This document shows positions 41,850 through 56,320 of a DNA stretch of 58,420 bases, one piece after another. Within the stretch, counting starts at the first letter, position 1; each line of letters begins with the position of its first letter. Made by a program: the position numbers and the translations under genes. Source of the stretch: Anaerofustis stercorihominis (GTDB lineage: Bacteria; Bacillota; Clostridia; Eubacteriales; Anaerofustaceae); the NCBI RefSeq assembly GCF_005844425.1, contig NZ_SPHL01000009.1, positions 1-58,420 of the forward strand, given 5' to 3'. The notes beneath the pieces were generated by a model. That model was not told the DNA's origin. It saw nothing but the letters and a program-made list of their open reading frames with translations, and searched no databases.

Positions 41850-42038
41850 ACTTTCTTCCTCCTAATTATGATTCGACAGTACGACCATGCTTGATACACT
41901 GTTCCGTGTGTTTCACTTGTGAGTTAGACGCACAAAAACACCAAGCATGCCGCCCCATTCTAGATGGTGACATACTCCACGGAAAAACCCGTTCACACGG
42001 CAACCTCCCGCTTCAACGCATTTTCTTCTGTCATAGCC
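41850..42038 (-). promoter_or_regulatory. Structured S10-operon leader RNA (probably L4-responsive)
   Basis: About 190 nt between the predicted start and rpsJ are far richer in G/C than any other gap. Several helices are visible: CATGCTTG with CAAGCATG (41886-41893 and 41942-41949), CCGTGTG with CACACGG (41904-41910 and 41994-42000), ACGG with CCGT around an A-rich loop (41979-41993), and CCAT with ATGG near 41955-41967. The minus strand includes GCGGGAGGTTGC. Bacillota carry an L4-controlled leader at this place; the match is by position and shape, not a model score. Confidence 0.7.
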
Positions 42039-54484: not shown

Positions 54485-54807
54485 ACCTCACATATGTAAA
54501 TTTAATATTATTCTTTATTTATGTATCAGTATATTTTATCATATTTTCATTTTAATTCATAGGATAATATATCTTATAATTTATAAATAAAATATAATAA
54601 ATTGTAATAAAATATAAAATTTATATTTTATGAATTAATTAAGTTGCATTTTAATATTAATACATTTTCATTTCCATATGTATTTTTAAATTAATAATAA
54701 TTTATCAAAATTTTTTTTAATCCAGTTAAAACAAATCCTTTTTTTATTTTGTCATATTAAGAAAATAACACAATATAAATATATTATAACATTTATTGGA
54801 GGAAGCA
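54485..54807. other. A/T-rich gap between ftsK and the cwlJ-like gene
   Basis: About 320 bp of very A/T-rich DNA between divergent genes. On the right a TTGTCA (54749-54754) precedes TATAAA (54774-54779) with 19-nt spacing, a poor promoter for cwlJ, then GGAGG at 54798. No gene or repeat seen. A sporulation sigma site could hide here; I could not define one. Confidence 0.4.
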
Positions 54808-55251
54808 ATGGCTTATTCGGACAGAGAACTTTTAGCAAGATTAATTGAGTGCGAAGCGGGAGGCGAAGGTAATGAAGGTATGGCCGCAGTAGCAAGTGTA
54901 GTCATGAACAGAGTTTATACTCCATATGGAGAATATTCAAGAGTTTCAAACGGAGGAAGTATCAGAAACATAATATATCAAAAAGGACAATTTACCTGTG
55001 CCATGGAAACTGTAAACGGAGAATATAACCCACAAAACATATACAATATGAATCCTACAAATATTCATTATCAAATAGCAGACTGGGCAATATCGGGAGG
55101 ACGGCTTTATAATCTTGGATACGCACTTTGGTTTTATAACCCTTTTCAAAATAACTGTAGAGATTTTTTTCCAAGCGAAGTTGGAAGTTTAATAACCAAA
55201 ATAGGAAAACATTGCTTTTATAATCCAACTGAAAAATATTTACAAACTTAA
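54808..55251 (+). CDS. cwlJ: Cell-wall hydrolase, CwlJ/SleB-like catalytic domain
   Basis: Start ATG 54808 (MAYSDRELL), 6 nt after GGAGGAA. The 147 aa are one SleB-family hydrolase domain: LLARLIECEAGGEGNEGMAA with the catalytic-type Glu16, VASVVMNRVYTPYG, IYQKGQFTCA and ALWFYNPFQNNC. There is no signal peptide, as in Bacillus CwlJ (142 aa) and unlike secreted SleB. CwlJ lyses spore cortex at germination after GerQ-dependent placement in the coat. The next gene resembles GerQ, supporting this call. Confidence 0.85.
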   Translation: MAYSDRELLARLIECEAGGEGNEGMAAVASVVMNRVYTPYGEYSRVSNGGSIRNIIYQKGQFTCAMETVNGEYNPQNIYNMNPTNIHYQIADWAISGGRLYNLGYALWFYNPFQNNCRDFFPSEVGSLITKIGKHCFYNPTEKYLQT

Positions 55252-55264
55252 AAGAGAGGTAGAT

Positions 55265-55654
55265 ATGGATAGAGAAGATAATTTAAATGGAATCTTCAGT
55301 GGTCAAAACTATAATAAGCACCTTGATAATCAAATGGATAATAATTTTGAACCGGAAAAAGACAGTGACGGTTCCAATGTCCCTTCTGTATTTACAGTAG
55401 GTACTACTCCTGATATACTAAACAGAATTAAAGGTGAATACTGCGTATGTGAATTTGTAATAGGAAGTGATACATTAATAACAAAATCCGGAATAATGTA
55501 TAATGTTGGACTTAGCTATTTTACTCTTTTTAATATTTCTAATAATGAATATATAGTTTGCGATATATATTCGGTTAAATTTATAACGGTTCCCAGAACA
55601 GATGTAATATCTCAAAGAAACATATCATCAAATCAAAGAAGAAATAGAAGATAA
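55265..55654 (+). CDS. gerQ: GerQ-like spore coat protein
   Basis: The 129 aa have a polar, low-complexity N-terminus (DNQMDNNFEPEKDSDGS) and a beta-rich core from PDILNRIKGEY to IYSVKFITV, then a basic tail (SSNQRRNRR). The core aligns by eye with the GerQ domain: NIL-x2-NKGK start, GVI-like turn, and a Y-L-x-Y-I-T-F-like end. GerQ adjoins cwlJ in Bacillus and is needed for CwlJ assembly. AGAGAGG precedes ATG 55265, 13 bp after the cwlJ-like stop. Divergence is high, so function is inferred mostly from the pairing. Confidence 0.65.
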   Translation: MDREDNLNGIFSGQNYNKHLDNQMDNNFEPEKDSDGSNVPSVFTVGTTPDILNRIKGEYCVCEFVIGSDTLITKSGIMYNVGLSYFTLFNISNNEYIVCDIYSVKFITVPRTDVISQRNISSNQRRNRR

Positions 55655-55684
55655 CTCTTTTGTATAAAGAATTTTAAATTTTTA

Positions 55685-55713
55685 TTACATAATTCCTATA
55701 AAAATGGTATAAT
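55685..55713 (+). promoter_or_regulatory. Promoter of the carD-like gene
   Basis: TTACAT (55685-55690), 17 nt, TATAAT (55708-55713) with TGG before it (extended -10). Predicted start near 55720. Confidence 0.65.
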
Positions 55714-55724
55714 ATGTTTATGGC

Positions 55725-55767
55725 AAACAGCTTAATCGTAGACATCATGACTGCTATTAGGCTGTTT
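55725..55767 (+). promoter_or_regulatory. Leader hairpin upstream of the carD-like gene
   Basis: AAACAGCTTAAT (55725-55736) pairs with ATTAGGCTGTTT (55756-55767), 12 pairs with one G-U, around a 19-nt loop. It begins about five bases after the predicted start. TTT then TATTATAAC follow, so it may attenuate or be a leader element. The same bases hold a 21-codon ATG frame (55720). Confidence 0.55.
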
Positions 55768-55801
55768 TATTATAACATTTTATAAAAAAGGGGTTGTTGT
55801 A

Positions 55802-56320
55802 ATGTTTAGTTTAAATGAAATAATTCAATATGATAACGAAGGACTATGCAAAATCAGTGAAATTGTAGAAAAAGACTTTGCAGGGGCTAAAGCAAAATTT
55901 TACGTTCTAACTCCTATTAATAAAGATAGCCTTACAATATTTGTTCCAATTAACAATAAAAAACAAACACAAAAAATGAGAAAGATTTTAACTCCAAAGG
56001 AAATCTATAATTTAATAAATGACATAAAAGATGATGATTTAATATGGATTAATGACGACAACGAAAGGAAACAAACATACAAACAAATTATACATTCAGG
56101 AGACAGAAAAAATATAATCAAGTTAATAAGAACATTATATTTACATAAAAAAGAACAAATAAAGAATGGAAAAAAACTGCATATGTGCGATGAAGAGATA
56201 TTAAAAAATGCAACAAGACTTCTACATGAAGAGTTTTCTCATGTATTAAATATAGAGCCGGAAGAAGTTGCTCCTTTTATATCAGAGCATATTAAAGTTA
56301 AAGAAAAAATAAACGTATAA
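55802..56320 (+). CDS. CarD/CdnL family transcription regulator
   Basis: The 172 aa start with a Tudor-like RNA-polymerase-interacting domain (FSLNEIIQYDNEGLCKISEI, FYVLTPINKDSLTIFVPINN) and end with a helical domain (IRTLYLHKKEQI, then CDEEILKNATRLLHEEFSHV), the CarD architecture. CarD/CdnL stabilise open complexes at many promoters in other phyla; clostridial members are less known. AAGGGG precedes ATG 55802. It has its own promoter and leader. Confidence 0.88.
   Translation: MFSLNEIIQYDNEGLCKISEIVEKDFAGAKAKFYVLTPINKDSLTIFVPINNKKQTQKMRKILTPKEIYNLINDIKDDDLIWINDDNERKQTYKQIIHSGDRKNIIKLIRTLYLHKKEQIKNGKKLHMCDEEILKNATRLLHEEFSHVLNIEPEEVAPFISEHIKVKEKINV

Follow-up and report, generated by a model that had tools for sequence, protein, structure and literature searches.

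The analysed stretch of DNA, hereafter the window, comprises 58,420 nucleotides of a contig of Anaerofustis stercorihominis and carries two adjacent genes on the forward strand, designated cwlJ and gerQ-like, whose features are listed in Table 1. A preliminary description of the locus, in which a signal-less SleB-type hydrolase was followed 13 bp later by a small protein, was accurate in both coordinates and gap. No terminator-like site was found in the interval 54485-55810. The divergent gene upstream of cwlJ was identified by reading as FtsK/SpoIIIE-type, and a CarD-like gene (55802-56320, + strand) lies directly downstream of the pair; the same order is seen in two genomes of the same genus. 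Elsewhere in the window, an S10-Clostridia ribosomal protein leader is located at 41947-42024 (- strand), as expected before a ribosomal gene cluster.

Table 1. Features of the cwlJ and gerQ-like locus (positions refer to the window)
Feature	Position	Strand	Description
cwlJ	54808-55251	+	signal-less Hydrolase_2 protein, predicted cortex-lytic enzyme, 147 aa; PF07486; GGAGG site 5' of the ATG
Intergenic gap	55252-55264	+	13 bp with AGAGAGG-type ribosome-binding site of the second gene
gerQ-like gene	55265-55654	+	129 aa, clostridial-type CwlJ partner; no Pfam or NCBIfam match
N-terminal tail	55265-55399	+	variable, Asn/Asp-rich; poorly alignable outside the genus
66-aa core	55400-55597	+	predicted Sm-like barrel related to GerQ (AlphaFold2, Foldseek, VIA-align, hhalign)

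The start of cwlJ, within a reading frame called at 54796-55251, was placed at the ATG in position 54808, from which the length of the product is counted. Hydrolase_2 (PF07486) is the sole Pfam family matched by this protein (E 2.6e-21), while the match to the NCBIfam SleB model is partial and under the cut-off. Its N-terminus, beginning with MAYSDRELLARL, contains no signal peptide as judged by reading. CwlJ proteins are recognised as Hydrolase_2 proteins of about 140-150 aa that lack both a signal peptide and a peptidoglycan-binding domain, and the product of 54808-55251 has all of these properties; it is 58-87% identical to five orthologues within the order. A weak match to SleB (4F55), with an E value of 0.0027, pairs a CEA-GE stretch of the protein with YGESRGE, and the glutamate of the CEA-GE stretch is presumably the catalytic residue. 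The protein resembles CwlJ of Bacillus in being a short Hydrolase_2 protein without a signal or peptidoglycan-binding domain that is encoded by the first gene of a pair. However, it belongs to a separate clostridial subfamily: two CwlJ proteins of Bacilli reached 51-56 bits (E 1.9e-15 and 8.9e-14) with the clostridial CwlJ profile, as compared with 121-298 bits for members of the subfamily. Unlike the Bacillus enzyme, it also has a cysteine ahead of the presumed catalytic glutamate (CEAGGEG). No CwlJ was found on plasmids at E<=1e-15.

Orthologues of the protein encoded by the second gene were identified in 6 of 67 genomes of the order, each after a CwlJ gene, and the two other genomes of the genus that were examined keep both genes in the same order. 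A profile of the core (A3, 66 columns), built from the six orthologues of the order, matched 89 of 291 sampled genomes of the class at E<=0.01. The 95 loci that were read comprise all 91 places of the class search and four genomes of the order outside the 291-genome sample. In 78 of them a CwlJ gene is located directly upstream on the same strand, with a median gap of 30.5 bp and a largest gap of 267 bp; a few gaps are negative because the longest reading frame was taken. The clostridial CwlJ profile, in turn, matched 74 of the 291 genomes at E<=1e-20; in the assembly of one of these (G246) a stop interrupts cwlJ. Each of the 74 also belongs to the 89 genomes recognised by the core profile, and in 74 of 74 the partner is the next gene after cwlJ in the same orientation, although a partnerless CwlJ of the Bacillus type would go uncounted here, since the CwlJ profile originates from six partner-bearing loci and scores the proteins of Bacilli only weakly. 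These 74 genomes and four more of the order account for the 78 coupled loci.

A similar arrangement was found in the genome_contigs collection, where 77 of the best 80 of 570 related loci have the partner downstream, 72 by the strict rule and five with the longest frame of the partner overlapping cwlJ and its core located after the cwlJ stop. Of the remaining three, two are on contigs that end soon after cwlJ and one (L180) has no partner. Intestinimonas butyriciproducens and Oscillibacter valericigenes are among the species that carry the pair. A single-protein scan of the same collection with the partner retrieved no relative. Comparison of the three genomes of the genus gave dN/dS values of about 0.05-0.07 for cwlJ and about 0.05-0.27 for the gerQ-like gene, which are rough estimates, since five of the six comparisons have a dS above 1. 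The low values point to selection on both genes, and it can be argued that they reflect a present function rather than mere history. Thus, the two genes are not chance neighbours, being kept together in the genus, evolving at low dN/dS and coupled in 78 of 95 loci of the class.

The N-terminal tail of the partner is probably flexible, and the corresponding tails of 78 family members have a median length of 92.5 aa and a composition dominated by no fixed motif but rich in P, Q, T and M. The core contains three cysteines (aa 60, 62 and 99) instead of the two first reported; only Cys99 is widely shared, by 39 of 47 family sequences, while Cys60 and Cys62 are each present in 5 of 47.

GerQ, to which the core had been likened, has been studied in Bacillus. 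Profile searches with the two proteins of the locus, proposed in the preliminary description, yielded the Hydrolase_2 assignment of the first but no GerQ match for the second: the 129-aa protein does not match the GerQ profiles of Pfam (PF09671) and NCBIfam (TIGR02728) at E<=1. The Pfam profile exceeded its cut-off in none of the 291 genomes of the class, with a B. subtilis control being positive, and reached E<=0.01 in four. PDB searches with HMMs of the family did not find the GerQ structure 8ZRA. A weak Pfam GerQ match elsewhere in the A. stercorihominis genome (contig C33, E 0.05) was dismissed as chance, as it falls inside a 420-aa frame resembling by eye a dehydrogenase of the proline pathway.

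Nevertheless, structural and profile-profile comparisons point to kinship with GerQ. An AlphaFold2 model of the core, computed with 47 sequences, has a pLDDT of 90 or more at 61 of 92 residues and predicts an Sm-like barrel. In a Foldseek search with this model 8ZRA was the sole match below 1e-3 (8.1e-4), followed by a first Hfq at 1.1e-2, in a fold so common that 1119 matches were obtained at E<=10. VIA-align also placed 8ZRA at the top, with Z 11.1 over 72 residues versus 9.6 for Hfq. Alignment by hhalign to four GerQ or GerQ-like sequences of Bacilli gave P 3e-5 over 65 columns, and none of 300 column shuffles was as good; with 8ZRA alone the signal was weak (P 0.0016, one of 300 shuffles as good), and with one Hfq, that of E. 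coli, no sequence signal was seen (P 0.77). The structural and profile evidence for this kinship is independent of the 74 of 74 count. The genomic context is comparable as well, as in two records of Bacilli the annotated gerQ begins 52 and 26 bp after a cell wall hydrolase gene. Although no GerQ profile matches, structure, profile-profile comparison and context agree, and the name 'GerQ-like counterpart' was therefore chosen; judging from sequences and the predicted model, the partner would represent such a counterpart, outside the GerQ family as curated. The strong divergence noted earlier is real, but it is a property of the whole clostridial family and not of one genome.

Like GerQ (YwdL) of Bacilli, the partner is encoded directly after a CwlJ-type gene and combines a low-complexity tail with a core of about 65 aa. 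The clostridial protein differs in several respects: it is only 10% identical in the structural alignment with 8ZRA, the loop of Trp123 has no counterpart, and an arginine or lysine and an invariant aspartate are aligned with Phe128 and Leu154 of GerQ. The N-terminal lysine pair, cross-linked by Tgl in GerQ, is rare in the clostridial family, with at least two lysines among the first 10 residues in 6 of 78 members, and absent in the window protein, which has no lysine in its first 10 residues. PMC11405398 lists 13 residues at the ring interface of the GerQ nonamer. In an alignment that is uncertain here, eight of these 13 positions are hydrophobic in most clostridial sequences, three, including the invariant aspartate and the R/K position, are not, and two have no counterpart, which makes a ring assembly of the partner plausible.

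We propose that the two genes form a small sporulation unit, consisting of CwlJ and a clostridial counterpart of GerQ, the latter serving as a coat scaffold by which CwlJ is positioned at the cortex; we would give this reading a probability of about three in four. The product of the first gene, presumably a peptidoglycan hydrolase that acts on the cortex and lacks an export signal, would be synthesised in the mother cell and incorporated into the coat. By analogy with Bacillus, the partner would become part of the coat, possibly as a ring, and hold CwlJ at the cortex, perhaps by binding it directly. When the spore germinates, the core would release dipicolinic acid, which, as Ca-DPA, would activate CwlJ; the enzyme may then open the cortex alongside SleB and YpeB. 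The Bacillus basis for these steps is described in PMC11405398 and PMC5083711, the former calling the interaction of CwlJ with GerQ hypothetical. A scan for a sigma-E-like promoter revealed no signal upstream of the 78 cwlJ genes, six of which scored at p<=0.05; the consensus used was that of Bacillus. In view of this negative result, expression in the mother cell is suggested by analogy only.

The genome of A. stercorihominis encodes Spo0A (contig C10) with SpoIVB beside it, SpoIVA (contig C4), and, on contig C34, SleB with YpeB starting 8 bp after it (L223:4313-6435), all as full-length frames. The SleB-YpeB pair represents a second cortex-lysis unit, encoded away from the window. SleB shares the Hydrolase_2 domain with CwlJ but differs in its partner, YpeB, in its PG_binding_1 domain and in an N-terminal membrane or signal stretch recognised by reading. 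Since this second unit is also encoded, the CwlJ-dependent cortex lysis predicted in the preliminary description is reduced to the statement that CwlJ may contribute. Within the order, Spo0A was found in 17 and SpoIVA in 18 of 67 genomes; both are present in all six pair-bearing genomes, and a partner match at E<=0.001 occurs in none of the 49 genomes that lack SpoIVA. Across the class SpoIVA was detected in 68 of 74 CwlJ genomes versus 138 of 217 others (Fisher p 1.3e-6, ignoring relatedness); one of the six CwlJ genomes with no SpoIVA match is 99% complete.

Some components of the sporulation machinery were not recovered. A search for dpaA at E<=1e-5 found no match in the A. stercorihominis genome or in the other five pair-bearing genomes of the order. 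Some clostridia make dipicolinate without DpaAB. The SpoIID domain (PF08486) had no match in the A. stercorihominis genome at E<=0.001 and exceeded the cut-off in only 1 of 13 members of its family, 10 of which have both Spo0A and SpoIVA; this pattern suggests the loss or strong divergence of the engulfment protein in the family. SpoIID/LytB is also a domain of SleC, according to PMC5083711. The SleC-Csp system of Clostridioides difficile and Clostridium perfringens is an alternative route of cortex lysis in Clostridia, from which A. stercorihominis differs in that no SpoIID/LytB-domain protein, and hence no SleC by this measure, was found in its genome, the controls for this search including no genome known to have SleC. 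At the level of this domain, the contrast with SleC users drawn in the preliminary description holds for this genome. With neither dpaA nor a SpoIID domain found, sporulation of the organism is not assured, and its gene content, gaps included, is best described as consistent with spore formation. The interpretation in the preliminary description is mostly right: a CwlJ and GerQ-like pair in a genome with Spo0A, SpoIVA, SpoIVB and SleB-YpeB is supported, while neither the GerQ profiles nor dpaA gave a match.

The same gaps would fit the pair being a relic in a lineage that has lost sporulation, the genes being kept by inertia or for turnover of the vegetative wall. Such an origin would be compatible with a GerQ-like second protein, and it agrees with the description of a new species of the genus, Anaerofustis butyriciformans, as non-spore-forming in PMC12029686. 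However, Spo0A, SpoIVA, SpoIVB, SleB and YpeB all have full-length frames in the A. stercorihominis genome, both genes of the pair have low dN/dS within the genus, and in the order all six genomes with the pair have Spo0A and SpoIVA. A relic is considered unlikely, although of the alternatives to a functional sporulation unit it fares best.

Rather less probable still is that the partner is a dedicated inhibitor or chaperone silencing CwlJ in the mother cell, its barrel being a common fold shared with GerQ and put to another use. Strict coupling to the enzyme would suit a partner of any kind, the GerQ ring-interface residues are only partly kept, and small barrels are widespread, with many Hfq entries at a VIA-align Z near 9. 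On the other hand, GerQ ranks first in both Foldseek and VIA-align and is detectable by profile comparison, while Hfq is not, and the gene order is the same as in Bacilli. Moreover, a relative of the partner that occurs without CwlJ, near spoIVB and in some cases dpaAB (see below), fits a structural protein of the spore better than an inhibitor. An RNA-binding protein of the Hfq/Sm type, next to cwlJ by chance, was rejected as very improbable: the fold is Sm-like and Hfq structures rank next after 8ZRA, but VIA-align places GerQ higher, hhalign gives no signal to E. coli Hfq, and the gene adjoins cwlJ in all 74 sampled genomes with this CwlJ subfamily.

Fifteen of the 89 genomes matched by the core profile have no CwlJ at E<=1e-20. 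Nine of the fifteen belong to one family (f21), in which the matches are weak (E 4.7e-11 to 1.3e-4), while the tenth member of this family (G344) has a normal pair. The genes of the f21 relatives (L090-L098) are located near spoIVB in seven of nine loci, as identified by Pfam in L092 and L097 and by eye in the other five, and near dpaA/dpaB in three, by Pfam in L097 and by eye in the others. A profile of this branch, comprising the nine f21 loci and one sequence from another family (L089), shows a clear relationship to the branch linked with CwlJ (P 2e-17) and also to GerQ (P 1.1e-5), over 34 columns only. The model of this branch retrieved 8ZRA first in Foldseek (2.6e-3), with an Hfq close behind (4.2e-3). 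Of the other six, two are short orphans (L052 and L089), one is a distant match also touched by the Pfam GerQ profile (L008, E 0.004), and the remaining three core-profile matches (L099-L101) are probably due to chance. A tentative explanation, which we consider possible but less likely than its opposite, is that Clostridia possess their own GerQ superfamily of Sm-like spore proteins, older than its use with CwlJ, of which one branch is the constant partner of a clostridial CwlJ and another, located without CwlJ by spoIVB and the dipicolinate synthase genes, may couple DPA or cortex events differently; Sm-like rings would then be a general building block of the coat.

Second, short orphan copies of the GerQ-like core (L087 and L088) were observed in two pair-bearing genomes, at G172:C17:8027-8206 and G216:C7:420152-420334, in frames of 75-97 aa with no CwlJ beside them.

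A GerQ counterpart in Clostridia was not found described in our literature search, which covered passages of main texts. Papers on clostridial germination name CwlJ, but in the passages covered they report no clostridial GerQ: it is unmentioned in PMC5083711 and appears only in a reference title in PMC5684421 and PMC8953710, while the C. botulinum strain of PMC4490342 is stated there to lack both CwlJ and GerQ. The gene that follows cwlJ in every genome of the 291-genome sample with this CwlJ subfamily, and that is missed by the GerQ profiles, is a concrete candidate for the anchoring of CwlJ in such anaerobes. The interest of the locus lies in this widespread family rather than in one odd genome; its core profile can be used to annotate the family, and such highly diverged pairs allow the interaction between CwlJ and GerQ to be tested. 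A cwlJ and gerQ-like pair is also carried by an unverified record labelled 'Bacteriophage sp.' (MT835804.1, L232), which was taken to be mislabelled, as the neighbouring genes resemble by eye those of a bacterial chromosome.
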